Source: Gammaproteobacteria bacterium
GTDB taxonomy: Bacteria > Pseudomonadota > Gammaproteobacteria > Thiohalomonadales > Thiohalomonadaceae
Length of the DNA: 64,000 nucleotides
Direction: 5' to 3'
Assembly: GCA_026196275.1 (NCBI GenBank)
Contig: JAPHTQ010000029.1
Span: 1 to 64,000, forward strand
The position numbers and the translations under genes were made by a program. The notes under the pieces were generated by a model. The model had not been told where the DNA came from. It did not search any database and saw nothing but the letters and a program-made list of their open reading frames with translations. Shown piece by piece: positions 9,757-62,077 of this stretch (position 1 is the stretch's first letter; each line of letters opens with the position of its first letter).

Positions 9757-10332
9757 TCAGGGATTGATAAGATAGATCAGCAGTATCGTCAGCAGCGCGA
9801 TCACCAAGGTGCGCAGTCCGCTCCAGAGCCAATTACTGCCACGGATATTGCCGATCACTATCCCCAGCATAAACAATATTGCCAACGCCACCAGAATAGC
9901 CATCTCCAGGGGGTGCAGCGGCAACGCTACGCCAGCCCGGGCGAGCCACAGCGGCAGTATGATCACGATGCCGATACTGAACGGGGCCAGCCCGTTGACC
10001 AGGGCAATAAAAACCGGAATAGAGCGGCTGGCCTGGCCATGGGCGGTATCACTGAGGTCACGTACCATGGCCCCTTCCAGCTCCTGCAACTCACGTTCGC
10101 GCTCTGCCGATTCGCTGATGTAGGCACTGCTGATACCGCTGATCCCCAAGGCGACCGTCGCCCCCAGGCAGGCGCTGATCACCACCACCAGCGGGGTCTC
10201 GCCGCTGACGTAGAAACCGATATTCAGGCCCAGCAGCGTCAGCGCACCGTCAAAACCGTTCACCACAAAGTAGCGCCGCGCAATACCGTGCGAGCGCGAG
10301 AGTGAGAAGACAAATCGAAGCTGTCTCAGCAT
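9757..10332 (-). CDS. VIT1/CCC1-family membrane protein
   Basis: A 191-residue protein resembling the short VIT (vacuolar iron transporter)/TIGR00267-type family. It has about five membrane helices: GFDGALTLLGLNIGFY, LVVVISACLGATVALGISGI, SIPVFIALVNGLAPFSIGIV, a helix around PLHPLEMAILVALAILF, and a C-terminal helix. The cytoplasmic loop SESAERERELQELE between helices two and three is acidic, as in proteins that bind Fe2+ or Mn2+. Its substrate here is unknown. Six bases separate it from the DUF211 gene, so they are probably co-transcribed. DUF211 and this membrane family are reported as neighbours in other genomes, which suggests linked function. Confidence 0.7.
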   Translation of the reverse strand: MLRQLRFVFSLSRSHGIARRYFVVNGFDGALTLLGLNIGFYVSGETPLVVVISACLGATVALGISGISSAYISESAERERELQELEGAMVRDLSDTAHGQASRSIPVFIALVNGLAPFSIGIVIILPLWLARAGVALPLHPLEMAILVALAILFMLGIVIGNIRGSNWLWSGLRTLVIALLTILLIYLINP

Positions 10333-29167: not shown

Positions 29168-29209
29168 CAAAGCCGACTACACTGAAAAAAACATCTGGGG
29201 AGGTTGTCT

Positions 29210-30109
29210 GTGCTCGGTGTAACAAAAGAGGAACTGCTAGCGTCGATAAGCCAGCTTGAGCAGGCTATCCACAACCACAACGAGTGGTTTGAGGCCATTA
29301 ATCGCACCCTGCTCTGCCGGTTGCAACTGGATCAGCGGGAACTAAGGCCGGATGCCCATCGCGAGTGCCGCTTCGGCCAGTGGATCTATCAGTATGCCGG
29401 CGAAAGGCTGCGCGAGCACCCGGCCTTCCGGACTATCGAAAAAGAGCACCAGGCCATGCACGCAGCTGTCTCTGCGATGCTGCACAACCTGGATGAGTGC
29501 GGTGCCGTGACGGCCGACCGTTATGACCGCTTCGCCAACGCCATGAAGCGACTGCGTCTGGAAATCAACAGCCTGAAGGAGGAGCTGCAGAATACCCTCT
29601 ACAATCTGGACAGCCTTACCAGCGCCAACAACCGCATTGGCATGCTGACACACCTGCGCGAACAGCGCGAACTATCCCGGCGCAACAACCAGACATTTAG
29701 TATCGTCATGCTCGATCTGGATCACTTCAAAATGATCAATGACCGCTGTGGCCACCAGACAGGAGACCAGGTACTCAAAACCATCAGCCACTACATCCTC
29801 GACAACATTCGCCCCTATGACCGGCTCTATCGTTATGGCGGCGAGGAGTTCCTGCTGAGCATGCCGCAAACCGCCCTCGATACAGCAACCGCTGTCGCAG
29901 AGCGGCTGCGTGAGGGTATCACTCAACTGTCGTTCGGTCGGTGCAACGATGAACCGGTGCGCATCACTGTCTCCTTCGGCGTGGCCGAGCTGCCCCCTGA
30001 GGGTGACGTGGACGTGCTCATCCAGCATGCCGACAAGGCGCTTTACAACGCCAAACATCGCGGCAGAAACATGGTCTGTCCGTGGGACGCAAGCGAGAGC
30101 CAGGACTAA
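29210..30109 (+). CDS. CZB-GGDEF diguanylate cyclase, DgcZ-like
   Basis: A 299-residue cytoplasmic enzyme making c-di-GMP. The N-terminal CZB zinc-binding domain shows its His/Cys set: HNHNEWFEAI, DAHRECRFGQWIYQ and EKEHQAMHAAV, as in E. coli DgcZ, where zinc inhibits the enzyme. The GGDEF domain (about 130-295) has MLDLDHFKMINDRCGHQTGD, RYGGEEFLLSM and an intact RxxD inhibitory site (RPYD) five residues before GGEEF. GTG 29210 is chosen because GGGGAGG ends six bases upstream; TTG 29204 is too close. It is therefore probably zinc-responsive and product-inhibited. Confidence 0.9.
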   Translation: MLGVTKEELLASISQLEQAIHNHNEWFEAINRTLLCRLQLDQRELRPDAHRECRFGQWIYQYAGERLREHPAFRTIEKEHQAMHAAVSAMLHNLDECGAVTADRYDRFANAMKRLRLEINSLKEELQNTLYNLDSLTSANNRIGMLTHLREQRELSRRNNQTFSIVMLDLDHFKMINDRCGHQTGDQVLKTISHYILDNIRPYDRLYRYGGEEFLLSMPQTALDTATAVAERLREGITQLSFGRCNDEPVRITVSFGVAELPPEGDVDVLIQHADKALYNAKHRGRNMVCPWDASESQD

Positions 30110-30151
30110 ACCACGGCACTTCCAGCTTAGCGCACGGCTCAACTGCTCCTT

Positions 30152-30312
30152 AGGGGGCTGGTCGAAATAATATTTACATCCGGTCGCGCCTGGGCCATCA
30201 CTGCTGTGTTGCGTTTCTTGGCAAGGACCCTGCCACTGCCTGCGAAACGCGCCTTGCATTGATGGCCAAGGCACGCCCTCGGTGTTGACAACATTATTTC
30301 GACCAGCCCCCT
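30152..30312. mobile_element. 161-bp MITE-like palindromic element
   Basis: Perfect 20-bp terminal inverted repeats (30152-30171 and 30293-30312; AGGGGGCTGGTCGAAATAAT and its complement) enclose an interior that is itself an imperfect palindrome: GGGCCATCACT pairs with the region of TTGATGGCC, and TTGCGTTTC with GAAACGCGCC. There is no coding capacity. It resembles a non-autonomous transposable element or a REP-type hairpin. It fills most of the gap between two c-di-GMP genes. Confidence 0.75.
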
Positions 30313-30393
30313 TACGCTTTTGTGATACGGTTATTGGCGTGCCTCCGGCACCCCCCTTAAACTCGACAGACACTCACACTCGAGGTCTTACCC

Positions 30394-32010
30394 ATGCCAG
30401 GCAGTCACCGCCTATTGCAGCGTATCGAAAAACTGACAGAGATCGGGATTGCCCTCTCGGCAGAGAGTGACACTCCACGCCTGCTGGAGATGATCCTGCT
30501 CGGTGCCAAGGCCCTGACCAATGCCGATGGCGGCACACTCTATTCGGTGCAGGAAGACAACACCGTGAAAATGGAAATTGTGCGTACCGATTCGTTGCAG
30601 TTCGCCATGGGGGGGACCACTGGCGAACCGATCCCCTTCGAACCTATCCCGCTCTATGACGAGCAGGGACGGCCTAACCAGCACATGGTCGTTACTCATG
30701 CGGTACTCAACGATGTGACAGTCAATATCCCCGACGCCTACGACACCGAAGGGTTCGATTTCTCCGGCACAAAGAAGTTCGACCGGAGCACTGGCTACCG
30801 CTCCACCTCCTTCCTCACCGTCCCGCTGAAAAACCATGAGGGGGACATCATCGGCGTGCTGCAACTGCTCAATGCCCAGGATGAGCAGAGCGGCGAGATC
30901 ATCGCCTTCGATGATGAGGCCCAGCACCTGGTCGAATCGCTCGCCTCACTGGCGGCCATCGCGCTGACCAACCGCCGCCTGATCGATGATCTGAAGCACC
31001 TGCTCGAATCCCTGATCCAGCTGGTCGCCACCGCCATCGACGAAAAATCCCCCTACACCGGCGGTCACTGCAAACGGGTCCCGGTACTGACCATGATGCT
31101 CGCCGACGCCGCCAGCCACACCACCGAGGGGCCATTGAGGGATTTCAGCATGGACGAGGACGATCGCTACGAGCTGGAGATCGCCGCCTGGCTGCATGAC
31201 TGCGGCAAGATCACCACCCCCGAATACGTGGTCGACAAATCGACCAAGCTGGAGACCATCTACGACCGCATCGAGACCGTCGACACCCGCTTTGAGATCC
31301 TCAAGCGCGATGCCGAGATCGTCATGCTGAAAAAGCGGCAGGCCGCACTGGAGAGGGGCGAACTCATCGATGAGGCAGCACTGCAGCAGGAGTACCGGGA
31401 CACCCTTCATCAGCTCGATGAGGAGCTCGACTTTCTGCACATCAGTAATACTGGTGGAGAGTTCATGTCAGAGCAAGACCGGCAGCGGGTGCATGATATC
31501 GGGCGTCGACACTGGAATTACCACGGCAGCGAACTGCCGTTGCTAACCGAGAACGAACGCTACAACCTCACCATAGAAAAGGGAACACTGACTCCTGAAG
31601 AGCGCGAGGTGATCAACAACCACATCGTCGCCACCATCAAGATGCTCGAGGCACTACCCTTCCCCAAGCACCTCAAGCACGTTCCCGAATACGCCGGCGG
31701 TCACCACGAGAAGATGGACGGCTCCGGCTATCCGCGCGGACTGAAGGGCAGTCAGATGTCGGTGCAGGCACGCACCATGGCCATTGCCGATATTTTTGAT
31801 GCCCTCACCGCCAAGGATCGCCCCTACAAGGAGGGAAAAAAGCTCTCCGAGGCGCTGCGCATCCTCGGTTTCATGAAGCAGGGCGATCACATCGACCCGG
31901 ACCTGTTCGATATCTTCGTAAGGGAACGCATCTTCGAAAAATATGCCCACCAGTACCTCGACAGCAGCCAGATAGACGAGGTGGACCTGGAGAGCATCCC
32001 GGGCCTCTGA
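30394..32010 (+). CDS. GAF-HD-GYP phosphohydrolase (probable c-di-GMP phosphodiesterase)
   Basis: A 538-residue cytoplasmic protein. An N-terminal GAF sensor (about 15-195; ADGGTLYSVQEDNTV, STGYRSTSFLTVPLKNHEGDIIGVLQLLNA) is followed by an HD-GYP domain: GGHCKRVP, the HD pair in AAWLHDCGKITTPEYVVDK, then about 110 extra residues of helical insert, and GGHHEKMDGSGYPRGLKG with ADIFDALTAKDRPY. The metal ligands and GYP are intact. The long insert defines a subfamily. It probably degrades the c-di-GMP made by the neighbouring cyclase. The signal sensed by GAF is unknown. Confidence 0.9.
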   Translation: MPGSHRLLQRIEKLTEIGIALSAESDTPRLLEMILLGAKALTNADGGTLYSVQEDNTVKMEIVRTDSLQFAMGGTTGEPIPFEPIPLYDEQGRPNQHMVVTHAVLNDVTVNIPDAYDTEGFDFSGTKKFDRSTGYRSTSFLTVPLKNHEGDIIGVLQLLNAQDEQSGEIIAFDDEAQHLVESLASLAAIALTNRRLIDDLKHLLESLIQLVATAIDEKSPYTGGHCKRVPVLTMMLADAASHTTEGPLRDFSMDEDDRYELEIAAWLHDCGKITTPEYVVDKSTKLETIYDRIETVDTRFEILKRDAEIVMLKKRQAALERGELIDEAALQQEYRDTLHQLDEELDFLHISNTGGEFMSEQDRQRVHDIGRRHWNYHGSELPLLTENERYNLTIEKGTLTPEEREVINNHIVATIKMLEALPFPKHLKHVPEYAGGHHEKMDGSGYPRGLKGSQMSVQARTMAIADIFDALTAKDRPYKEGKKLSEALRILGFMKQGDHIDPDLFDIFVRERIFEKYAHQYLDSSQIDEVDLESIPGL

Positions 32011-32026: not shown

Positions 32027-32154
32027 TGCACCCGCACGATGCAATACCCTGCCGCTCTGCCCGGATTTGGTGCGGTCACGTGGCGGTGACACGCCGCATG
32101 CCCCCGGGGCGTGAGCACAGAGAGTCTTTTTACTGATGTGGCACGGCGGTTGCT
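32027..32154 (+). promoter_or_regulatory. Sigma-54 promoter with NtrC-like site upstream of nasT
   Basis: TGGCAC-GGCGG-TTGCT at 32139-32154 matches the sigma-54 -24/-12 consensus with correct spacing. About 96 bp upstream, at 32027-32043, is TGCACC-N5-GATGCA, an NtrC-like palindrome whose two halves recur exactly in the next promoter. From the predicted start near 32166, a leader of about 130 nt follows. It contains a short GCCG-TCT-CGGC hairpin and six T residues (32250-32267), possibly a weak attenuator. Confidence 0.8.
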
Positions 32155-32295
32155 GAACAATGCTGTAGGAAACGACTGCCTTCGTGCTGATAAACGGATC
32201 TCTCACACGGCAAGCCATGATGGCATAAGGGTCGGGGCAGGCATGGGTAGCCGTCTCGGCCTTTTTTCATCCTTCACACAAAGACGGTAAATCGC

Positions 32296-32895
32296 ATGGC
32301 GGAGCAGACAGGGCAACAGGGACTGCGCGTTCTCCTTGTGGATGAGAACAGGGGGCGATCCGCCCTGTTGGAACAGGCCCTGAGTGATGCCGGGTACCAG
32401 GTGATTGCCAAGGTGATCACCAGCGATAATCTCGCCCATCAGGTGCAGCTTCACCAGCCCGACGTGATCATCGTCGATCTCGAGTCCCCCGACCGCGACA
32501 CGCTGGAGCACATGCACAGCATCAGCCGCGACCAGCCGCGCCCCATCGTAATGTTCGCCGAAGACCAGGACAGCGATGCGATCCACAAAGCGATCAAGGC
32601 CGGCGTCAGTGCCTACATCGTCGACGGCCTGAGCAGCAAGCGGGTCAAGCCGGTGATGGAGGTAGCCATCGCCCGCTTTCGCGAATACCAGGCCCTGCGC
32701 GACGAATTGACGAAAACCAGGATCACCCTGGAAGAGCGCAAGATCATTGATCGCGCCAAGGGGCTACTGATGAAACGTCAGGGCATGGACGAGGAGGGTG
32801 CCTATCAGGCGCTGCGCAAGATCGCCATGGACCGCAGCCAGAAGCTGGTCGAAGTGGCGCGCAATGTGATCTCGGTGATGGAGTTGTTGGAATGA
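32296..32895 (+). CDS. nasT: ANTAR-domain RNA-binding response regulator NasT
   Basis: A 199-residue antiterminator. A receiver-like domain (about 10-125; VLLVDENRGRS, DVIIVDLESPD with a possible phospho-Asp) is followed by a coiled coil and a C-terminal ANTAR domain (about 138-198; IIDRAKGLLMKRQGMDEEGAYQALRKIAMDRSQKLVEVAR). NasT proteins bind twin hexaloop hairpins in nitrate-operon leaders and prevent termination. NasS holds NasT inactive without nitrate. Here the matching RNA target lies immediately downstream, ahead of nrtA, whereas the NasS-like gene is several genes away. Confidence 0.93.
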   Translation: MAEQTGQQGLRVLLVDENRGRSALLEQALSDAGYQVIAKVITSDNLAHQVQLHQPDVIIVDLESPDRDTLEHMHSISRDQPRPIVMFAEDQDSDAIHKAIKAGVSAYIVDGLSSKRVKPVMEVAIARFREYQALRDELTKTRITLEERKIIDRAKGLLMKRQGMDEEGAYQALRKIAMDRSQKLVEVARNVISVMELLE

Positions 32896-32918: not shown

Positions 32919-33070
32919 TGCACCACCCCGATGCAACATCGCTTCGCCGCAGATCATATTGGGGCACAGAGGGAACCTGCCGACAGGCAGACAAATCTCG
33001 ACATAGTCAGTTAAGCCGTTAATCGGAAAGACATTTCATATCCTCTCTGCCATTCTGGCACGGTCATTGC
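32919..33070 (+). promoter_or_regulatory. Sigma-54 promoter and NtrC-like site for the nitrate operon
   Basis: TGGCAC-GGTCA-TTGC at 33056-33070 is a consensus sigma-54 -24/-12 element. Its predicted start near 33082 falls four bases before the first ANTAR hairpin. An NtrC-like TGCACC-N5-GATGCA lies at 32919-32935, about 120 bp upstream of the -24 element, with the same halves as the site ahead of nasT. Confidence 0.82.
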
Positions 33071-33085
33071 GAAAGCCTAGGTAAG

Positions 33086-33226
33086 CACGTCGGCAACGAT
33101 GCTGGCGTGACAAGGTGATTGCAGATACCCAACGGCGGGTTGCAGTCGCGTTGTAGATAAAACACTTTCTGGACAAAGGCGTCCTTCCGCGCGGAGATTC
33201 TTCGTGGCGGTCGGACGCCTTTTTTT
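33086..33226 (+). promoter_or_regulatory. ANTAR twin-hairpin antitermination leader with intrinsic terminator
   Basis: The first hairpin is CACGTCGGC (33086-33094), loop AACGAT (33095-33100), GCTGGCGTG (33101-33109): nine pairs including two wobbles. The second has core stem ACCC (33127-33130), loop AACGGC (33131-33136), GGGT (33137-33140). Both six-base loops have A at position 1 and G at position 4, the ANTAR signature. The terminator follows, AAAGGCGTCC (33175-33184) pairing with GGACGCCTTT (33213-33222) and a T run to 33226. NasT binding should stop this terminator forming. Confidence 0.85.
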
Positions 33227-33248: not shown

Positions 33249-34655
33249 ATGATGAAGAAACGCACCAACGACCAAGGCAGCGGCTTTCTGCGCAAAACCG
33301 GCCTGGCAGTGCTTGCCGCTGGCATCCTGCTGGGCGGCAGCACCGTGTTGAACAGCGCCATCGCCAAGGAATACCCGGAAAAAGAGGAACTGAAATTCGG
33401 CTTCATCAAGCTGACCGACATGGCGCCATTGGCTATTGCCTATGAAAAGGGCTACTTCGAGGACGAAGGCCTCTATGTCACCCTCGAGGCCCAGGCCAAC
33501 TGGAAGGTACTGCTGGATCGCGTCATCGATGGCGAACTGGACGGCGCGCACATGCTGGCCGGCCAGCCGCTCGGCGCGACCATCGGTTTCGGTACCCAGG
33601 CGCACATCATCACCGCCTTCTCCATGGATCTGAACGGCAACGCGATTACCGTTTCCAACAAGATCTGGGATGAGATGAAGCCCTTTGTGCCCAAGGACAA
33701 GGACGGCAAGCCGGTGCACCCGATCAAGGCCGACGCCCTCAAGCCCGTGGTCGACAAGTACAAGAAGGAAGGCAAGCCGTTCAAGATGGGCATGGTCTTC
33801 CCGGTATCCACCCACAACTACGAATTGCGCTACTGGCTCGCCGCCGGCGGTATCCACCCCGGTTTCTATGCCCCGGCCAAGGGCGACACCAGCGGCACCC
33901 TCAAGGCCGATGCGCTGCTCTCCGTGACCCCGCCGCCGCAGATGCCGGCGACCATGGAAGCGGGCACCATCTACGGTTACTGCGTCGGCGAGCCGTGGAA
34001 CCAGCAGGCGGTGTTCAAGGGCATCGGTGTGCCGGTGATCACCGACTACGAGATCTGGAAAAACAACCCGGAGAAGGTGTTCGGCGTCTCCAAGGAGTGG
34101 GCCGACAAATACCCGATCACCCACAAGGCCGTGGTGAAAGCCCTGATCCGCGCCGCCAAATGGCTGGATGAGAACAACAATGCCAACCGTCCCGAGGCGG
34201 TGAAGATCCTCGCCAAGCCGCAGTATGTGGGCGCCGATTACGAGGTCATCGCCAATTCCATGACCGGCACCTTCGAGTACGAAAAGGGCGACAAGCGCGA
34301 AGTCCCTGACTTCAACGTCTTCTTCCGCTACAACGCCACCTATCCCTTCTACTCCGACGCCGTCTGGTATCTGACCCAGATGCGCCGCTGGGGCCAGGTT
34401 GCCGAACAGAAGCCGGACAGCTGGTACATGGATATCGCCAAAAAGGTCTACCGCCCGGACATCTACAGCGAAGCGGCCAGCGAGCTGATTGCCGAGGGCA
34501 AGATGAGCGCCGGCGAGTTCCCCGACTTCGCCAAGGAAGACGGTTTCCGCGCTCCGCAGACCCACTTCATCGACGGCATCACCTATGACGGCCACAAGCC
34601 GAACGACTACCTGAAAAATTTCGACATCGGCCTGAAGGGTAAGGAAAAGATTTAA
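33249..34655 (+). CDS. nrtA: Nitrate ABC transporter, periplasmic substrate-binding protein
   Basis: A 468-residue NrtA/CmpA-family binding protein. It has a signal sequence ([17 protein letters not shown], cleavage near SAIA-KE) and the family features [68 protein letters not shown] and [16 protein letters not shown]. It is expected to capture nitrate in the periplasm. ATG 33249 (or 33252) follows AGGGACAG; the in-frame start at 33204 lies inside the terminator and is rejected. It is the first gene of the operon controlled by the ANTAR leader. Confidence 0.93.
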
Positions 34656-34797: not shown

Positions 34798-35826
34798 ATG
34801 ACCATGAGTACACATATCTTTAACACATGCAGCACCTTCAATGCGCTCTGGCTGGAGCGCATACAGGGTGCCCTGCAGGGTGAGCGGTTCGTCAAAATGA
34901 CCGTCGGCGTCAGCCGCAACCTGTTCATCCCGTTTGTCGCCATTGCCATCTTCCTGGCGATGTGGGGCGCCGCCGCATCGAAGATCGAAACCTCACTCGG
35001 CACCCTGCCCGGCCCGGCCAAGGTGTGGGAGCAAACGGCTCAACTCTACAAGGAGCATCAGGTCTCACAGGAAAAGGAGGTAGCTTTCTACCAGCGCCAG
35101 GAGCAGCGCAACGCCGAACGACTCAAGCACGACCCGGACTATGAACCAAAGATCCGCCCCTACACCGGCGCCCCGACCTTTTTCGATCAGATCGGCACCA
35201 GTCTGCTCACCGTAGCGACCGGCTTCCTGCTCGCCTCGCTCATCGCCATACCCATTGGCATCGTCTGCGGCATGAGCGCCACGCTCTATCAAGCCCTCAA
35301 TCCGCTGATCCAGATCTTCAAACCGGTCTCGCCGCTGGCGTGGCTGCCGCTGGTGACCATCGTGGTCAGTGCGGTTTATGTCAGCGACGATCCACTGTTC
35401 GCCAAATCCTTCGTCACCTCGGCTATCACCGTTACCCTCTGCTGCCTCTGGCCGACCATCATCAATACCACCGTCGGCGTCTCCTCGGTGGACAAGGATC
35501 TGCTCAACGTCAGCCGCGTGCTGCGCCTCGGCTGGTTCACCAAGACGGTGAAGATCATCCTTCCCTCAGCCACGCCGATGATGTTCACCGGCCTGCGTCT
35601 GTCGCTCAGCATCGGCTGGATGGTGTTGATCGCCGCCGAAATGCTGGCGCAGAACCCCGGCCTCGGAAAATTCGTGTGGGACGAATTCCAGAACGGAAGT
35701 TCCGACTCCCTGGCCCGCATCATGGTCGCCGTACTGGTGATCGGACTCATCGGCTTCCTGCTCGACCGCGGCATGCTGTTGCTGCAACGCCGCGTCACCT
35801 GGGACCGCAACGCGGTGCTGCGCTAA
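34798..35826 (+). CDS. nrtB: Nitrate ABC transporter permease
   Basis: A 342-residue membrane subunit. There is an N-terminal helix (LFIPFVAIAIFLAMWGAAA), a long charged periplasmic loop (about 75-125, VSQEKEVAFYQRQEQRNAER), then five helices with the binding-protein-dependent transport signature around RVLRLGWFTKTVKIILPSA and LSIGWMVLIAAEML. The insert between helix one and the core is typical of the NrtB/CmpB group. ATG 34798 or ATG 34804 may be used. Confidence 0.92.
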   Translation: MTMSTHIFNTCSTFNALWLERIQGALQGERFVKMTVGVSRNLFIPFVAIAIFLAMWGAAASKIETSLGTLPGPAKVWEQTAQLYKEHQVSQEKEVAFYQRQEQRNAERLKHDPDYEPKIRPYTGAPTFFDQIGTSLLTVATGFLLASLIAIPIGIVCGMSATLYQALNPLIQIFKPVSPLAWLPLVTIVVSAVYVSDDPLFAKSFVTSAITVTLCCLWPTIINTTVGVSSVDKDLLNVSRVLRLGWFTKTVKIILPSATPMMFTGLRLSLSIGWMVLIAAEMLAQNPGLGKFVWDEFQNGSSDSLARIMVAVLVIGLIGFLLDRGMLLLQRRVTWDRNAVLR

Positions 35827-35945: not shown

Positions 35946-36806
35946 ATGAACACATACCTGAGCCTGGAAAACCTGAGCATCACCTTCGACACCGACAACG
36001 GTCCGTTGGATGTGCTCGACGATATTTCGCTGAAGATCGACAAGGGCGAATTCATTTCACTTATCGGTCACTCCGGCTGCGGCAAGTCGACCGTACTGAA
36101 CATCGTTGCCGGGATGCTGCAGGCCACCAGCGGCGGCGTGCTGCTGGAGAACCGCGAGGTCGACGAGCCCGGCCCCGACCGTGCCGTGGTGTTCCAGAAC
36201 CATTCGCTGCTGCCGTGGCTTACCGTGTATGACAACGTGCGTCTGGCCGTGGACCAGGTGTTCAGGAAAACCCGCAGCAAGCAGGAGCGCCACGCCTGGA
36301 CCCTGCACAATCTGGAGCTGGTGCACATGGGCCACGCCATGGATCGCCGCCCCGACGAGATCTCCGGCGGCATGAAACAGCGCGTCGGCATCGCCCGTGC
36401 GCTGGCGATGGAACCCAAGGTGCTGCTGATGGACGAGCCCTTCGGTGCGCTCGACTCGCTCACCCGCACCCACATGCAGGATTCGCTGATGGAGATCCAG
36501 GCAGACCTCAACAACACGGTGATCATGATTACCCACGACGTGGACGAGGCGGTGCTGCTCTCCGATCGCATCGTAATGATGAGCAACGGTCCCTCGGCCA
36601 CCGTCGGCGAGATCCTGAACATTGAACTGGAGCGCCCGCGCAATCGTCTCGCGCTCGCCGACGCCCCATCCTACAACCACTACCGAGCCGAAGTGCTGCG
36701 CTTCCTGCACGAACGCCACGCCCAGTCCGACGTGCCGGTAAAGAAGTCCGCAGAAGAAAGTGCGGAAGAAGTGTTGAAACCGACACTCAAGATAGCCGCC
36801 GGATAA
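35946..36806 (+). CDS. nrtD: Nitrate ABC transporter ATPase
   Basis: A 286-residue single ABC domain. Motifs are Walker A GHSGCGKST, Q-loop VFQNHSLLPW, signature ISGGMKQRVGIARAL, Walker B VLLMDEPFGALD and switch His in MITHDVDEAVLLSDR. It energises NrtAB. It lacks the NrtA-like C-terminal domain of cyanobacterial NrtC, but a free protein of that kind is encoded next. TAAGGAGTTC lies just before the ATG. Confidence 0.93.
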   Translation: MNTYLSLENLSITFDTDNGPLDVLDDISLKIDKGEFISLIGHSGCGKSTVLNIVAGMLQATSGGVLLENREVDEPGPDRAVVFQNHSLLPWLTVYDNVRLAVDQVFRKTRSKQERHAWTLHNLELVHMGHAMDRRPDEISGGMKQRVGIARALAMEPKVLLMDEPFGALDSLTRTHMQDSLMEIQADLNNTVIMITHDVDEAVLLSDRIVMMSNGPSATVGEILNIELERPRNRLALADAPSYNHYRAEVLRFLHERHAQSDVPVKKSAEESAEEVLKPTLKIAAG

Positions 36807-36969: not shown

Positions 36970-38289
36970 ATGACTGACAACCTGGAAAAAAGCGAACTGA
37001 GCCTGGGCTTTATCCCGCTGACCGACTGCGCCCCGCTGGTCGTCGCAAAAGAGAAAGGCTACTTCGACAAGTATGGTCTCAAGGTGACACTCTCCAAGGA
37101 GACCTCCTGGGCCAATATCCGCGACAAGGTCGCGCTCGGCATCCTCGATGGCGCGCAGATGCTAGCCGGTATGCCCCTCGCCATGAGTCTCGGCATCGGA
37201 CCGATGACCAAATCGATGGTCACCGCCTTCTCCATGGATCTCAACGGCAATGCCATCACCGTCTCCAACGCGCTGTTCGCACGCATGCAGCAGGCCGATC
37301 CGCAGGTGATGACGCAGCGCCCCCTGAGCGCGCGCGCACTGAAAAAAGTGATCGAAAACAACAGAAAGGCCGGAGGTGAGCCGCTCACCTTCGCCATGGT
37401 GTTTCCCTACTCCACCCACAACTATGAGCTGCGTTACTGGATGGCCGCCGCCGGAATCGACCCGGACGAGGATATACGCCTGGTGGTGGTGTCGCCGCCG
37501 CAGATGGTCGGCCAGCTGGAGAAGGGAACCATCGACGGCTACTGCGTTGGCGAGCCGTGGAATGCGCAGGCAGTGCAGGCCGGTCTCGGCCACACCCTGA
37601 TCACTAAATACGAGATATGGAACAACAGCCCGGAGAAGGTGCTTGGCGTCACCCAGGAGTGGGCCGAGCAGTACCCCAACACCCACAGGGCTCTGTTGAT
37701 GGCACTGCTCGAGGCGAGCCGCTGGCTGGACGAGCTGCAGAACCGTCTTGAAGCGGTCGCGATGATCTCGCGCAGCATTTACGTCAACGCGCCCGAATAT
37801 GTAGTACGTATGTCGATGACCGGCACCTTTCAGTATGCCGCCAATGAGATGCCTCGCGCCCTGCCCGACTTCAATGTTTTTTACCGTTACGCCGCCAACT
37901 TCCCCTGGCGATCACATGCACTGTGGTTCATCAGCCAGATGGTGCGCTGGGGGCAGATCGACAAGGCGGTCGACATGCGCGCCATTGCAGAAGAGGTATA
38001 TCGCCCGGACATCTACCGCGAGGCAGCCGCAGCCCTCGAACTGCTTTGCCCGAGCATCGACTACAAACTCGAAGGCCACCATGACAACAGCTGGAAATTG
38101 CACGAGGGCCGCGAGTCGCTGCTGATGGGCCCGGACCGTTTTCTCGACGGTCGCACCTTCGATCCATCAGGACCACTTGAGTACTTGCGCGGCTTCGACG
38201 TGCACCACCTCTCCATCGACCTCGGCGAACTGGCACAGTTGAACCGGCTGACTAACGCCGCCGACAACGCAGCCAACCCGTCTGTATAG
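36970..38289 (+). CDS. nasS: NasS-like cytoplasmic nitrate-binding regulator
   Basis: A 439-residue NrtA-family protein without a signal peptide: it opens MTDNLEKSELSLGFIPLTDC, directly in the binding fold. Conserved with nrtA are [46 protein letters not shown] and PDFNVFYRYAANFPW. NasS senses cytoplasmic nitrate/nitrite and sequesters NasT when they are absent. This gene is not beside nasT but after the transporter, so it could alternatively be a free version of the NrtC regulatory domain that inhibits transport. Both readings give a cytoplasmic nitrate sensor. Confidence 0.82.
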   Translation: MTDNLEKSELSLGFIPLTDCAPLVVAKEKGYFDKYGLKVTLSKETSWANIRDKVALGILDGAQMLAGMPLAMSLGIGPMTKSMVTAFSMDLNGNAITVSNALFARMQQADPQVMTQRPLSARALKKVIENNRKAGGEPLTFAMVFPYSTHNYELRYWMAAAGIDPDEDIRLVVVSPPQMVGQLEKGTIDGYCVGEPWNAQAVQAGLGHTLITKYEIWNNSPEKVLGVTQEWAEQYPNTHRALLMALLEASRWLDELQNRLEAVAMISRSIYVNAPEYVVRMSMTGTFQYAANEMPRALPDFNVFYRYAANFPWRSHALWFISQMVRWGQIDKAVDMRAIAEEVYRPDIYREAAAALELLCPSIDYKLEGHHDNSWKLHEGRESLLMGPDRFLDGRTFDPSGPLEYLRGFDVHHLSIDLGELAQLNRLTNAADNAANPSV

Positions 38290-38300
38290 GAGTCACGACA

Positions 38301-40763
38301 ATGAAAGAAAAACTGGTACTGATAGGCAACGGCATGGCCGGTGTGCGCACCCTTGAGGAGCTGCTTAAGCTGGCCCCGGGAGCCCATGACATCACCGTAT
38401 TCGGCGCCGAGCCCTACGGCAACTACAACCGCATCATGCTCTCACCAATGCTGACCGGCGAGACGACGCTTAATGAGATCATGCTCAACACCCCCGAGTG
38501 GTACGCCGACAACAACATCACCCTGCACACCGGCACGAAGATCGTAAAGATCGACCGCAAGAACCTCGTGGTCAGAGCCGATGACGGCACCGAGGCCGAG
38601 TATGACCGGCTGCTGCTCGCCACCGGCTCCAACCCCTTCATCCTGCCGGTGCCCGGCCATGAACTGGAGGGGGTGATCGGCTTCCGCGATGTGCAGGACG
38701 TGGAGACGATGATCGCCACGGCGCAAAGATACAAACACGCGGTGGTGATCGGCGGCGGCCTGCTCGGGCTGGAGGCGGCCAACGGCCTGCAGAAGCACGG
38801 CATGAGGGTGCGCGTGGTGCACATCAGCGACACCCTGATGAACCAGCAACTCGACAGCGAAGCGGGCCAGTTGCTGCAAAAAGAGCTGGAAGGGCGCGGC
38901 GTTGAATTCCTGATGGGGGCCAGTACCAAGGAGATCATCGGACGCAAGCGGGTCCAGGCGGTAACCTTCGAGGATGGACGCGAGATCACCGCCGATCTGG
39001 TGGTAATGGCCGTCGGCATCCGCCCCAACATCGCCCTGGCCAAGTCGGCGGGGATCTACTGCGGCCGCGGCATCGTGGTTAACGACACCATGCAGACCTA
39101 CGACCCGCGCGTCTATGCTGTGGGTGAGTGCGTACAGCATCGCAACCAGTGCTACGGCCTGGTTGCACCGCTGTTCGAGATGGCCAAGGTGTGTGCCAAC
39201 CACATTGCCAAACTCGGCTATGGCCGCTACGAGGGCTCCATCACCTCCACCAAACTGAAGGTGACCGGTGTCGATCTCTTTTCCGCCGGAGACTTTAACG
39301 GCGATGAACAGTGTGAGCGCATCGTCTACCGCGACCCCTCCAGGGGCGTTTACAAAAAGGTGGTACTGAAGGATAACCGCATCCAGGGCGCCCTGCTCTA
39401 CGGTTCCACCATGGACGGTCCCTGGTACTTCCAGCTGATGCGCGACGGCTCCGACATCAGCGCCTTCCGCGACAGCCTGATGTTCGGCCAGGGGCACCTT
39501 GCCGATTCCGGCCACGGCGGCGGCAACGCGGTGATGAACATGGCCGACGATGCCGAGGTGTGCGGCTGCAACGGCGTCACCAAGGGCGACATCGTGCGCG
39601 CCATCACCACCGAAGGCCTCTTCACCCTGGACGAGGTGAAGGCACACACCAAGGCCTCCGCCTCCTGCGGCGGCTGCAGCGGCCTGGTGGAGCAGATCCT
39701 CGCCGCCACCGTCGGTAGCGATCTCTCCCACCCCAAGGTCAAGCCGATGTGCCCCTGCACCGAACACAGTCATGACCAGGTGCGCGCGGCGATTCGCGAT
39801 GACGAGCTGACCTCCATGGAGGCGGTATTCCAGCACCTCGACTGGCGCACCCCCAACGGCTGCCCCAGCTGCCGCCCGGCGCTCAACTACTACCTCATCT
39901 CCAGCTGGCCGCAACAGGCCAAGGACGATCCGCAGTCACGCTTCGTCAACGAGCGGGTGCACGGCAACATCCAGAAAGATCGTAGCTACACCGTGGTGCC
40001 GCGGATGTGGGGCGGCGTCACCACGCCGCAGGAACTGCGTGCCATTGCCGATGCGGCGGAGAAATACAACGTGCCGATGGTGAAGGTGACAGGCGGGCAG
40101 CGTATCGACCTGGTCGGCGTGAAGAAGGAGCAACTGCCCGAGATGTGGAAAGACCTCAATGCCGCCGGCATGGTCTCCGGCCACGCCTACGGCAAGGCGC
40201 TACGCACGGTGAAGACCTGCATCGGCTCGCAGTATTGCCGCTTCGGCACCCAGGACTCGGTCGGCATGGGGATCGCACTGGAAAAGCTCACCTGGGCCTC
40301 CTGGACACCGCACAAATTCAAGATGGCAGTCTCCGGCTGTCCACGCAACTGTGCCGAGGCAACGATCAAGGACTTCGGCGTGGTCGCGGTCGATTCCGGC
40401 TATGAGCTGCACGTCGGCGGTAACGGCGGCATCAAGGTGCGCGTCACCGATCTGCTGGCCCGTGTCGAGACCGATGGCGAGGTACTGGAGTATGCCGGCG
40501 CCTTCATGCAGCTCTACCGCGAAGAGGCGCGCTACCTGGAGCGCACCGCCCCCTGGATCGAACGGGTCGGCCTCAACTATGTCAAGGAGCGTATCGTTGA
40601 CGATGCCGAGAACCGCAGGGCGCTCAACGCACGCTTCCTCATCTCGCAGGAGGTGTCGCAAAGCGACCCATGGAACGAGCTGTCGAAAGAGGAACACCGC
40701 CTGCAGTTCGTGCCGATGAAGAATTTTAACTCGAGCGATGACAAGGTCGCCGCCAACAGCTAA
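38301..40763 (+). CDS. nirB: Assimilatory nitrite reductase, large subunit
   Basis: An 820-residue NADH-dependent enzyme reducing nitrite to ammonium. Domains in order are FAD (GNGMAGVRTLEELL), NAD (VVIGGGLLGLEAANGLQ), a BFD-like [2Fe-2S] domain (CGCNGVTKGD and CGGCSGLVEQIL), a second Cys-rich stretch (CPCTEHSHD, CPSCRPALNYY), and a C-terminal sirohaem/[4Fe-4S] domain (CIGSQYCRFGTQDS and VSGCPRNCAEA). All cluster cysteines are present. The small subunit nirD follows after a haemoglobin gene. Confidence 0.96.
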   Translation: MKEKLVLIGNGMAGVRTLEELLKLAPGAHDITVFGAEPYGNYNRIMLSPMLTGETTLNEIMLNTPEWYADNNITLHTGTKIVKIDRKNLVVRADDGTEAEYDRLLLATGSNPFILPVPGHELEGVIGFRDVQDVETMIATAQRYKHAVVIGGGLLGLEAANGLQKHGMRVRVVHISDTLMNQQLDSEAGQLLQKELEGRGVEFLMGASTKEIIGRKRVQAVTFEDGREITADLVVMAVGIRPNIALAKSAGIYCGRGIVVNDTMQTYDPRVYAVGECVQHRNQCYGLVAPLFEMAKVCANHIAKLGYGRYEGSITSTKLKVTGVDLFSAGDFNGDEQCERIVYRDPSRGVYKKVVLKDNRIQGALLYGSTMDGPWYFQLMRDGSDISAFRDSLMFGQGHLADSGHGGGNAVMNMADDAEVCGCNGVTKGDIVRAITTEGLFTLDEVKAHTKASASCGGCSGLVEQILAATVGSDLSHPKVKPMCPCTEHSHDQVRAAIRDDELTSMEAVFQHLDWRTPNGCPSCRPALNYYLISSWPQQAKDDPQSRFVNERVHGNIQKDRSYTVVPRMWGGVTTPQELRAIADAAEKYNVPMVKVTGGQRIDLVGVKKEQLPEMWKDLNAAGMVSGHAYGKALRTVKTCIGSQYCRFGTQDSVGMGIALEKLTWASWTPHKFKMAVSGCPRNCAEATIKDFGVVAVDSGYELHVGGNGGIKVRVTDLLARVETDGEVLEYAGAFMQLYREEARYLERTAPWIERVGLNYVKERIVDDAENRRALNARFLISQEVSQSDPWNELSKEEHRLQFVPMKNFNSSDDKVAANS

Positions 40764-41620: not shown

Positions 41621-41960
41621 AACCGCAAAGACGCGAAGAACGCGAAGAAAACACCAATAAAGATACAGCCGGGAGATTATTCCCGGCAATCAATGGCGTT
41701 GATCATGTTTTTCAGGCTGCGACAAGAAACTGAAGCAAACAAACAAGTATTCCTCTTTGCGTTCTTTGCGCCTTTGCGCCTTTGCGGTGAAAAGATTTTA
41801 ATCATGAGTGAAGTTCGTAGGCCGGACATGGCGGGGCGGTGTCCGGCAGAACCTGCCCGATACCGCTACGCTATATCGGGCCTACCTCCTACCACCACAT
41901 CGGGCCTACCGATGCGCAGCCCGAGTTTTCCTTTGCGTTCTTTGCGCCTTTGCGGTGAAT
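41621..41960. repeat. nirD-nasA gap: CGCAAAG pair plus REP-like hairpins and a duplicated right arm
   Basis: The left arm 41621-41650 pairs with a right arm at 41753-41790. A second right arm with its following TTTTAATCATGA sequence recurs at 41932-41975. Between the two right arms lie two hairpins: GCCGGACA/TGTCCGGC (41821-41828, 41840-41847) and GCCCGATA/TATCGGGC (41855-41862, 41874-41881). So REP-like DNA appears inserted in, and bracketed by, a duplication of the nasA leader. No gene is present in this 363-bp gap. Confidence 0.75.
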
Positions 41961-41972
41961 AAGGTTTTAATC

Positions 41973-44693
41973 ATGAAAGAAGTCAAAACAACCTGCCCCT
42001 ACTGCGGCGTCGGCTGCGGCGTTATCGCCTCGACTGCGCCTGACGGCACGGTAACTATCAAGGGCGACCCGGATCATCCGGCAAACTTCGGCCGCCTCTG
42101 TTCCAAGGGCGCGGCGCTGGGTGAGACTCTGGACATGGAGGGCCGCCTGCTGCACCCGATCGTCGACGGACAGGTCAGCGACTGGGACACGGCACTGGAT
42201 AGCGTCGCCTCACGTTTTCGTGCCCTCATCGCGGAGCACGGCCCCGATGCGGTGGCCTTCTATGTCTCCGGGCAACTCCTCACCGAGGATTACTACGTCG
42301 CCAACAAGCTGATGAAGGGATTCATCGGCTCGGCCAACATCGACACCAATTCGCGCCTGTGCATGTCATCCGCTGTGGCCGCCTACAAGCGTGCCTTCGG
42401 TTCCGACAGTGTGCCCTGCAGTTACGCGGATCTGGAGCGGGCCAAGCTCATCGTCATCACCGGCTCCAACACCGCCTGGTGCCACCCGGTGGTTTACCAG
42501 CGTATCGTCCAGGCCAAAAAGAGATACCCGGACATACGCATTGTCGTGATCGACCCGCGCCGCACTGCGACCTGCGAGATCGCCGATCTGCACCTGCCGC
42601 TCAAGCCCGGCAGTGATGCGTTTCTGTTCAACGGCATGCTGCATTATCTCGACCAGCAGCAGGAGCACAACACCCTCTACACCGCCCGGTTCACTGAAGG
42701 GGCCGACGCCGCGCTCGCCGCGGCCCGGGACTCCTCACCAACGATCCGGAGCGTGGCCGAACTGTGCGCGCTGGACGGTGCGCTGCTCGAGCAGTTCTTT
42801 GATCTCTTCGCCCGCACCGAGCGGGTGGTCACGCTCTTCTCCCAGGGGATCAACCAGTCCTCCAGCGGCACCGACAAGGGCAATGCGATCATTAACTGCC
42901 ATCTGCTCACCGGCCGCATCGGTCGTCCCGGCATGGGGCCCTTCTCCATTACCGGCCAACCCAACGCCATGGGCGGCCGCGAGGTCGGCGGCCTGGCCAA
43001 CCAGCTCGCCGCGCATATGGAGCTTGAGGATCCCGGGCACCGCGCCCTGGTACAGTCGTTCTGGCAATCCCCTGCGATTGCCGACAAGCCGGGACTCAAG
43101 GCGGTGGATCTTTTCCGCGCCGTGGAAGAGGGCAAGGTCAAGGCGGTGTGGATCATGGCCACCAATCCCGTGGTGAGCATGCCCGATGCAGACAGGGTCA
43201 AGGCTGCGCTGGAAAAATGCGAGCTGGTGGTGGTCTCCGACAACATGGCGCACACCGACACCGTAGACCTTGCCCACATCAAGCTGCCGGCACTCGGTTG
43301 GGGCGAGAAGGAGGGCACGGTCACCAACTCCGAACGGTGCATCTCGCGGCAGCGCGCCTTTCTCGCCGCACCGGGCAGCGCCAGGGCAGACTGGTGGATC
43401 CTCAGTGAAGTGGCAAAACGCATGGGCTTTGCCGAGCAGTTCGCCTATGCCCTTCCCGCCGAAATCTTTTCCGAGCATGCACGGCTGACCGCCTGCCACA
43501 ACGACGGCACGCGGGACCTCGACATTGGCGGCCTTGGCGGTCTGAGTGCGGAGCAATACGATGTCCTGGCGCCCAGGCAATGGCCCGTGACCGACAAACA
43601 GCCTGAGGGGAGCGTTCGCCTCTTCAGCGACGGCCGCTTCTTCACCCCCAATGGCAAGGCACGCTTCATCGCCGTCGCTCCGCAGCCACCGGCGCATGAA
43701 CCCGACGAGCAGCTTCCGCTCTGCCTTAACACCGGCCGCGTACGCGACCACTGGCATACCATGACGCGCAGTGGCAAATCGCCGCGCCTCGCCACCCATA
43801 CCCGGGAGCCCTACGCCGAACTCCACCCGCAGGATGCCGCACGCCACGGCATCGAAGACAATGCGCTGGTCAAGGTGGAAGGGAAACAGGGCAGCATCAC
43901 CGTGCGCGCCCATCTCAGTGAGCGGCAACAACCGGGCTCGCTCTTTGTCCCCATTCACTGGAACGCGCAATTTGCCAGCGCTGCACGTGTCGATGCGCTG
44001 ATCAGCGCCGTCACCGATCCGGTCTCAGGTCAGCCCGAATCGAAACATGCCCCGGCACGTATCGTGCCCTGTCAGCCCGCCTGGTTCGGCTTCCTGCTTA
44101 GTCGCCGCCGGCTCACCCCCAACGAGGCCAGCTACTGGAGTTGCTCACGCGGCGACGGCCTGTGGCGCTACCAGCTTGCCGGCGATCAGGTCCCCGCCGA
44201 CTGGGCGCAAAGCGCCCGTGCTGTGCTGTGCTCGCCGGAACAGGACGTGGGCTGGATCGAATACTTCGACCCGGCAACACAACAATATCGCGCCGCGCGC
44301 ATCGTCAACGGCAGCCTGGAGAGTTGCCTCCACATCGGCCCCGATCGGCACCTGCCGGCGCACGACTGGATCGAACCGCTGTTTGCCCAGCCAGCCCTCG
44401 GCGGCAACGAACGCATCGCCCTGCTCGCCGGAAAACCGCTGCGCCAGCAACAGGACGCCGGCCCCTCGGTCTGTGCCTGCTTCGGCGTCGGCAGCGAAAC
44501 CATCCGTCAGACGATACGCGAGAAACGCATCACCAGCATCGAACAGATTACCAAGGAGCTCAAGGCTGGCGGCAACTGTGGTTCTTGCCTGCCAGAGCTC
44601 AAAGCGTTGTTGCATGAAGCGCTACATAACAGTGCAGAACGCACCAAAACAACCACCGATCACTCCGCCTTACATGTCACCCAGGGCCAGTAA
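41973..44693 (+). CDS. nasA: Assimilatory nitrate reductase catalytic subunit
   Basis: A 906-residue molybdenum bis-MGD enzyme of the cytoplasm. The [4Fe-4S] motif is CPYCGVGCG with LCSKGAAL; the Mo/pterin domains follow (SNTAWCHPVVYQRI, TNPVVSMPDADRVK, NTGRVRDHWHTMTRSGKS). The C-terminus adds a BFD-like [2Fe-2S] domain (CACFGVGSETIRQTI, GGNCGSCLPELKALL), as in NADH- or ferredoxin-linked Nas enzymes. No Tat signal. I chose ATG 41973 with AAGG upstream; a longer frame from 41808 would translate repeat DNA. Confidence 0.95.
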   Translation: MKEVKTTCPYCGVGCGVIASTAPDGTVTIKGDPDHPANFGRLCSKGAALGETLDMEGRLLHPIVDGQVSDWDTALDSVASRFRALIAEHGPDAVAFYVSGQLLTEDYYVANKLMKGFIGSANIDTNSRLCMSSAVAAYKRAFGSDSVPCSYADLERAKLIVITGSNTAWCHPVVYQRIVQAKKRYPDIRIVVIDPRRTATCEIADLHLPLKPGSDAFLFNGMLHYLDQQQEHNTLYTARFTEGADAALAAARDSSPTIRSVAELCALDGALLEQFFDLFARTERVVTLFSQGINQSSSGTDKGNAIINCHLLTGRIGRPGMGPFSITGQPNAMGGREVGGLANQLAAHMELEDPGHRALVQSFWQSPAIADKPGLKAVDLFRAVEEGKVKAVWIMATNPVVSMPDADRVKAALEKCELVVVSDNMAHTDTVDLAHIKLPALGWGEKEGTVTNSERCISRQRAFLAAPGSARADWWILSEVAKRMGFAEQFAYALPAEIFSEHARLTACHNDGTRDLDIGGLGGLSAEQYDVLAPRQWPVTDKQPEGSVRLFSDGRFFTPNGKARFIAVAPQPPAHEPDEQLPLCLNTGRVRDHWHTMTRSGKSPRLATHTREPYAELHPQDAARHGIEDNALVKVEGKQGSITVRAHLSERQQPGSLFVPIHWNAQFASAARVDALISAVTDPVSGQPESKHAPARIVPCQPAWFGFLLSRRRLTPNEASYWSCSRGDGLWRYQLAGDQVPADWAQSARAVLCSPEQDVGWIEYFDPATQQYRAARIVNGSLESCLHIGPDRHLPAHDWIEPLFAQPALGGNERIALLAGKPLRQQQDAGPSVCACFGVGSETIRQTIREKRITSIEQITKELKAGGNCGSCLPELKALLHEALHNSAERTKTTTDHSALHVTQGQ

Positions 44694-61599: not shown

Positions 61600-61792
61600 A
61601 ATAGCCTTAGTCCTTCAAGCGCATACCTGTGTGCAGAAGAACCGGGAGTGATACTGCACACGGCTCCTCCATTCCACTCAGACAGATGCGTCCGTCAATG
61701 GGTCAGCTGGGCAAAGGATCGGTGTGAGGGGGCACTCATTCTGAACCCGACAAGGAAGAGACTTTCAATCAGCGAATGATTCTTTCGAGTCT

Positions 61793-61867
61793 GGCAGCCC
61801 CGCCGTCTTGGGTCGTTAAACCTTTAGACCGGTAGCTTTGCGCCCCCACCTTTCGGCCGGATTTGCC
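61793..61867 (-). promoter_or_regulatory. Cyclic-di-GMP class I (GEMM-I) riboswitch
   Basis: On the minus strand the order is GGCAAATCC, GGCC-GAAA-GGT, GGGGGCGCAAAGCTACCGG, a GGTC/GACC stem, then AAGACGGCGGGGCTGCC. This follows the GEMM-I consensus, with the GNRA loop, GCGCAAAG core, tetraloop receptor-like segment, and GGCA/TGCC closing pair. It lies about 190 nt upstream of the GGDEF-EAL start. Downstream, AGACT/AGTCT and AATCA/TGATT stems may form the expression platform. Confidence 0.85.
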
Positions 61868-62077
61868 TTTTCAGCTGACGCCAGCTTACTTGGTTATTTG
61901 CTTATTATCAATAAGTTATGCGGAAATAGCTTGTCGATTCGTTGCGTGGCTTGATGCAAAAAACCGTGCCGACAGAGGTATCGGGCAGACCGGAATCCTC
62001 TGGTCACCGGAAGTGGATCGCCTCACTCATTTCGGGCTGGAGGGCGGGTAGCTACTTACGGTTTGCTGCTTGCCGGG
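61868..62077. other. Gene-free gap between ribE and the riboswitch
   Basis: This is about 210 bp with no gene. It probably carries the promoter for the riboswitch-controlled sensor transcript. I see no repeat or terminator that I can support. Confidence 0.4.

Follow-up and report, generated by a model that had tools for sequence, protein, structure and literature searches.

A leader with three tandem A1/G4 hexaloop hairpins behind a predicted sigma-54 promoter: a probable NasT attenuator of the NalA/P11 type before a nitrate assimilation operon

A question raised by the assimilatory nitrate cluster in the window (the whole stretch of 64,000 nucleotides of gammaproteobacterial DNA that was analysed) is "By what means might nitrogen status and nitrate together decide whether the operon is transcribed?" A first-pass annotation had answered with a sigma-54 promoter feeding straight into an ANTAR twin-hairpin attenuator, an AND gate held within about 160 bp. 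We conclude, with high confidence, that the leader is a NasT attenuator of the NalA/P11 type under sigma-54/NtrC control, although its hairpins are three and the one that competes with the terminator is not among the two originally named.

The nitrate cluster and its regulatory genes

The cluster lies on the plus strand in the order nasT, a 353-bp gap, nrtA, nrtB, nrtC/D, a NasS-like gene, nirB, a truncated globin gene and a nasA-like gene, and the gap contains an NtrC-like palindrome, a sigma-54 promoter and a 145-nt leader with a terminator at its end. The genes are as follows:

32296..32895, plus strand: nasT, receiver plus ANTAR RNA-binding protein (ANTAR PF03861, E 5e-21; Response_reg PF00072, E 3e-13)
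33249..34655, plus strand: nrtA-like periplasmic nitrate-binding protein, first gene past the terminator (PF13379, E 8.5e-101)
34798..35826, plus strand: nrtB-like permease (TIGR01183, E 1.4e-46, under cut-off)
35946..36806, plus strand: nrtC/D-like ATPase (TIGR01184, 343.6 bits, above cut-off)
36970..38289, plus strand: NasS-like cytoplasmic nitrate/nitrite sensor candidate, by similarity
38301..40763, plus strand: nirB, assimilatory nitrite reductase (TIGR02374, 957 bits, above cut-off)
41808..44693, plus strand: nasA-like assimilatory nitrate reductase (strong match to the NasC/NasA models NF047855 and NF041323, under cut-off)

The nasT gene, 300 bp upstream, is the sole ANTAR match in the genome, and its product is 63-72% identical to the NasT of other family members; RpoN and NtrC are both encoded in the genome, above curated cut-offs. 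The NasS-like protein starts at the mature region; it lacks the N-terminal extension of 38 residues present in NrtA and is 46-47% identical over 250 aa to the nasT-adjacent protein of Onishia and 48% identical to NrtA. Similarity alone makes it a candidate NasS, and it could be a second transport protein; if it is NasS, its place within the operon that it helps to control would create negative feedback.

Directly upstream of nasT are genes for a CZB-GGDEF diguanylate cyclase and a GAF-HD-GYP phosphodiesterase-type protein (29204-32010). According to work cited in a review (PMC12830290), c-di-GMP binds NasT in P. putida and impairs antitermination; from these adjoining genes a local input of c-di-GMP is therefore conceivable. 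Among the relatives examined the HD-GYP gene is kept upstream of nasT only in locus L008. A c-di-GMP-I riboswitch (73.3 bits, above gathering score) is found elsewhere in the window, at 61790-61877 on the minus strand.

Two predicted sigma-54 promoters

The cluster has two promoters of the sigma-54 type, each preceded by an NtrC-like site:

32027..32043, plus strand: NtrC-like site before the nasT promoter, TGCACCCGCACGATGCA
32139..32154, plus strand: nasT sigma-54 promoter, TGGCACGGCGGTTGCT, 0 mismatches, predicted +1 at 32165
32919..32935, plus strand: NtrC-like enhancer site, TGCACCACCCCGATGCA, 1 mismatch to TGCACCNNNNNGGTGCA, 137 bp upstream of the sigma-54 site
33056..33071, plus strand: nas operon sigma-54 -24/-12 promoter, TGGCACGGTCATTGCG, 1 mismatch to TGGCACGNNNNTTGCW, predicted +1 at 33082

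The nas promoter has the GG-N10-GC core with consensus -24/-12 elements, and a start at 33082, four bases before the first hairpin, had been correctly predicted, the HP1 stem beginning at 33086. Could such a site have arisen by chance? The window holds three sigma-54 matches at no more than one mismatch (1.02 expected); at two mismatches it holds 11, fewer than the 13.35 of the shuffles, and we rejected the consensus by itself as proof. What lifts the nas site above chance is its conserved position in close relatives: in L007, L009, L010 and L011 the HP1 loop follows the predicted +1 by 11-13 nt, and a sigma-54 site also lies 11-13 nt before the HP1 loop in L004 and L005.

The coordinate at which the annotated element had been started, 32919, coincides with the NtrC-like palindrome. 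At one mismatch the window is expected to hold 0.40 such palindromes and holds three, of which one precedes the nasT promoter and one the nas promoter. In L007, L009, L010 and L011 the NtrC-like sites are weaker (2 mismatches) and lie at -104 to -106; the distance of -137 here, relative to about -104 in these relatives, counts against the site. We infer an NtrC site from the consensus, and initiation by sigma-54 polymerase with phosphorylated NtrC would be in keeping with that site and with known biology.

Does nitrogen status act only at the operon? A sigma-54 site (0-1 mismatch) precedes nasT in L007, L008, L009, L010 and L011, and nasT is under NtrBC control in Paracoccus (PMC5424462). Because nasT here has its own sigma-54 and NtrC-like sites, nitrogen status probably acts twice, at the regulator and at the operon. 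An AND of nitrogen status and nitrate is the best reading of the locus and is established for the orthologous NalA/P11 leader (PMC12830290, PMC3973561), but the two signals reach beyond the roughly 160 bp that had been supposed, since the sites before nasT are at 32027-32154 and the NasS-like gene lies inside the operon.

The nasT leader itself (32165-32295) has a terminator-like hairpin at about 32227-32266 (-21.7 kcal/mol, T6), between promoter and start codon, and the predicted nasT leader is much shorter in L007 and L008. As a second ANTAR target the region was rejected: it has no A1/G4 hexaloop and its fold is unremarkable (z -0.48).

Three hairpins, one terminator and their conservation

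Downstream of the nas promoter the leader contains these elements:

33086..33109, plus strand: HP1, 9-bp stem, hexaloop AACGAT (33095-33100), A1/G4, fold z -4.08
33127..33140, plus strand: HP2, the middle hairpin, 4-bp upper stem, hexaloop AACGGC (33131-33136), A1/G4, fold z -3.66
33171..33184, plus strand: HP3, putative antiterminator hairpin, GGAC-AAAGGC-GTCC, hexaloop 33175-33180, A1/G4
33175..33226, plus strand: intrinsic terminator, AAAGGCGTCC (33175-33184) pairing with GGACGCCTTT (33213-33222), T7 at 33220-33226

The leader as a whole folds far better than its shuffles (z -5.97; none of 200 as good), and the lower stem of HP2 reaches about 33112-33152. The two loops with A1 and G4 and the strong terminator behind them (10-bp outer stem, -31.7 kcal/mol, z -4.69) had all been recognised from the start. 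The description of the element as a twin, however, overlooked a third A1/G4 hairpin at 33171-33184, of a type expected 0.01 times in the window at no more than one mismatch. There are thus three tandem A1/G4 hexaloop hairpins, with loops at 33095, 33131 and 33175, of which the last overlaps the 5′ side of the terminator.

Which hairpin, then, competes with the terminator? The loop and 3′ stem of HP3 are the terminator's 5′ arm (33175-33184). In the MFE structure of the leader HP1, HP2 and the terminator all coexist, and HP1 and HP2 alone therefore cannot exclude the terminator by pairing. When growing transcripts were folded, HP3 was in the MFE structure for 3′ ends from 33187 to 33215 and was replaced by the terminator by 33219; forcing HP3 in the full leader gave -56.8 rather than -71.2 kcal/mol, a cost of 14.4 kcal/mol, so that a protein would be needed to hold it. 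In these folds HP3 behaves as expected of a protein-held antiterminator, and it would be the competitor of the terminator. The known ANTAR motif has two A1/G4 hairpins, and published ANTAR leaders work because the second, P2, overlaps the 5′ base of the terminator (PMC3369931). The attenuator layout first proposed stands in part, with HP3 as its competing element. That HP1 and HP2 are themselves the ANTAR pair, and that bound NasT blocks the terminator without any competing hairpin, we consider quite improbable: they are the most stable of the hexaloop hairpins and each has A1 and G4, but they coexist with the terminator, whereas no element of the class is better conserved than HP3, which does not vary among 29 Pseudomonas leaders and corresponds to the terminator-overlapping hairpin of the published model (PMC3369931).

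Four loci of the same family (L007, L009, L010 and L011; NasT 69-72% identical) follow the order of the window: sigma-54 site (0-1 mismatch), HP1, HP2, HP3, terminator. The Onishia loci L004 and L005 keep the sigma-54 site, HP1 and HP2 (A1/G4), and have GAAGAC, without A1, as HP3 loop (about 9797-9813), so that the A1 rule has exceptions at HP3. Loops at the HP2 position among relatives are AACGGC, AATGGC or AACGAC. In a seven-sequence alignment all pairs of the three helices are kept in every sequence, and 6 of the 14 pairs have changed on both sides (2.7 in shuffles, 0-2 in slid controls); HP1 and HP2 are each 100% paired, and two-sided changes affect 4 of 6 pairs in HP1 and 2 of 4 in HP2. 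HP3 is invariant, and support for its pairing is consequently sequence conservation and not covariation.

We also scanned the fetched loci for a sigma-54 site plus an A1/G4 hairpin overlapping a terminator and obtained 56 leaders, some from windows that overlap in origin, and because the selection rule required both the promoter and an A1/G4 HP3, neither can be counted as an independent finding in this set. Upstream of HP3, A1 and G4 occur together in 66 of the 96 hexaloop hairpins, compared with 2.0 in shuffles, and in 48 of the 77 distinct ones. Nearly all the leaders are followed by nirB, nrtA-like, nasA-like, cobA-like or other nitrate-assimilation genes; the same layout is found before nitrate/nitrite assimilation genes in the relatives and across Gammaproteobacteria. 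In L165 and L167 the gene behind such a sigma-54 plus ANTAR leader encodes a cobA-like uroporphyrinogen methyltransferase, an arrangement suggesting that NasT controls how much siroheme is available to NirB. Neither the P11 model nor the RGACAAMGGCGTCY pattern revealed another NasT target within the genome of the window.

The leader matches two Rfam families, each under its gathering score. The model of P11 (RF00625), which Rfam names 'Pseudomonas sRNA', aligns end to end over 33044-33219, at 30.7 bits, under its gathering score of 70 (E-values 4.7e-5 in 411 bases and 7.1e-5 genome-wide). Of 80 genomes in the family to which G180 belongs, 52 contain P11, which precedes nirB in the loci examined. 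Since the model starts with a sigma-54 promoter (UUGGCACAagcaCUGCa), it includes untranscribed DNA; it ends in the terminator of the nirB leader (L036, L079-L107, L157-L167). By its position before nirB and its promoter, P11 is the NalA leader, and P11 is reported to regulate a nitrogen assimilation operon (PMC12080996). The NalA/P11 order of sigma-54 promoter, HP1, HP3, terminator and nitrate-assimilation genes is that of the window.

A second family, narK RNA (RF03032), has a consensus that includes a sigma-54 promoter and a GACAAAGACGTC hairpin. The window scores 17.2 bits with its model, under the gathering score of 43.2. The best genomic member, L176, has a sigma-54 site, an AACGGC hairpin and CGAC-AAAGGC-GTCG, followed by a narK-type transporter gene. 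Judged by sequence, narK RNA looks like the two-hexaloop version, unlike the window with its three, and both families look like sigma-54 plus ANTAR leaders.

A proposed mechanism and its relation to known systems

How might these elements work together? In nitrogen shortage, phosphorylated NtrC bound near 32919 would activate sigma-54 polymerase at 33056, with transcription starting at about 33082. If neither nitrate nor nitrite is present, the NasS-like protein would hold NasT, and, free NasT being absent, HP1 and HP2 would form, HP3 would last until the 3′ arm of the terminator emerged and most transcripts would end at about 33222-33226. With nitrate or nitrite NasS would release NasT, which would dock on the HP1 and HP2 hexaloops and then pass to, or also bind, HP3. 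By holding the 4-bp stem of HP3, NasT would make the terminator's 5′ arm (33175-33184) unavailable, with readthrough into nrtABC-nasS-nirB-nasA as the outcome.

In Pseudomonas P11 the middle hairpin is CCCG-ANNGAN-CGGG, and in 26 leaders the loop has A1 in 24 and G4 in all 26 while position 2 takes C, T, G or A and position 3 A, C or T; such constancy of A1/G4 beside varying positions 2 and 3 is, at the sequence level, what marks a loop read by a protein. Position 5 is mostly A, so the loop may be conserved partly for other reasons or by descent, these Pseudomonas sequences being related. Covariation supports the middle hairpin well in the window's family (both sides changed in 2 of 4 pairs) and modestly in Pseudomonas (1 of 5).

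Might one of the three hairpins nevertheless be superfluous? The true two-hairpin motif could be HP2 with HP3, or HP1 with HP3, the remaining A1/G4 hairpin being a functionless spacer or relic. Two-hexaloop leaders are common in the same class (L038, L040, L104, L105, L113, L165), with the caveat that the division into twin and triple depends on stem cut-offs and some Pseudomonas leaders are wrongly split, and NasR binds two-hairpin RNA at full affinity (PMC7496416). Against a spacer or relic are the A1 and G4 of the Pseudomonas middle loop, kept while its positions 2 and 3 take three or four bases, and the HP2 stems of the window's family, in which compensatory changes accompany an unchanged loop. 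We regard this alternative as unlikely, though deserving of attention.

We propose instead, tentatively and at somewhat less than an even chance, that the leader is a three-hexaloop ANTAR array in which HP1 and HP2 recruit NasT early and hand it to HP3, with docking sites no more than about 45 nt apart, and that Pseudomonas P11/NalA is alike. The crystal study of EutV argued that one dimer is unable to contact both hexaloops at once, proposed recruitment by the first hairpin and hand-off to the antiterminator hairpin, and reported that a 20-nt longer linker abolished action (PMC8934654). By analogy, a third hexaloop between a distant pair would be compatible with such a relay. Adjoining loops are 36 and 44 nt apart here (HP1 to HP3, 80 nt), adjacent loops in triples in general 18-44 nt (HP1 to HP3, 40-80) and those of two-loop leaders 18-62 nt. 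We rejected spacing as proof: it fits a relay but does not demand one, as two-loop leaders of 50-62 nt exist. No account of a three-hexaloop leader was found in a literature search that stopped short of Romeo 2012, Nie 2024 and Marogi 2024, and an earlier description is possible.

The closest known system is the NalA leader of Pseudomonas nirBD, which is described as sigma-54/NtrC-dependent and as needing NasT (PMC3973561; PMC12830290, citing Romeo 2012 and Nie 2024). NalA/P11 shares with the window the sigma-54 -24/-12 promoter, an AACGNN HP1, a middle ANNGNN hairpin, GGACAAAGGCGTCC overlapping the terminator and a nitrate-assimilation operon. It differs in hairpin spacing (23 and 18 nt, relative to 36 and 44), in its middle loop (ANNGAN, where the window's family has AAYGRC) and in preceding nirBD and not nrtABC-nasS-nirB. 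The Klebsiella nasF/NasR system likewise has an ANTAR protein, A1/G4 hexaloops and nitrate-responsive antitermination (PMC3369931, PMC7496416), features deduced here from sequence, but its leader has two hairpins and NasR is a one-component NIT-ANTAR sensor, whereas the window has NasT and a separate NasS-like sensor. Paracoccus denitrificans resembles the window, as read from its genes and sites, in NasT/NasS control, a leader hairpin needed for NasT action and NtrBC control of nasT (PMC5424462, PMC3795266); there NasS-NasT dissociates on nitrate or nitrite and NasT binds the nasA leader (PMC3795266). However, no sigma-54 site is described for its nasA leader and its nasT and nasS are adjacent, while the window's NasS-like gene is within the operon. 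Enterococcus EutV has A1/G4 hexaloops, the last of which (the second in EutV) overlaps the terminator, and the proposed hand-off (PMC8934654); unlike the window it has two hairpins with a strict linker, is driven by phosphorylation and serves ethanolamine genes. The AND gate of nitrogen limitation and nitrate is established biology in Pseudomonas and Klebsiella, and the window joins that kind.

Is the short terminated transcript itself the functional product, a trans-acting sRNA to which attenuation is secondary? RF00625 is classed as a gene in Rfam, and a trans-kingdom role in C. elegans has been reported for the P11 RNA of PA14 (PMC12080996). The element, however, is in every case immediately followed by nitrate/nitrite assimilation genes, what is conserved in it is precisely the set of ANTAR and terminator elements, and NalA is treated as a leader where the review discusses it (PMC12830290). 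We judge this reading highly improbable; a trans role of the terminated RNA in addition to cis attenuation may exist.

Taken as an attenuator, the leader has consequences beyond this locus. Identification of the true antiterminator hairpin means that the right bases can be mutated, and a leader with a conserved third hexaloop is a natural system in which to test the EutV hand-off model. P11, which Rfam files as an sRNA gene, and narK RNA, two families for which no mechanism is stated, would be unified as sigma-54 plus ANTAR leaders. In C. elegans, inherited pathogen avoidance is reported to be driven by P11. If P11 is the terminated product of an attenuator, its level would be predicted to go up with nitrogen limitation and to go down relative to nirB mRNA with nitrate.
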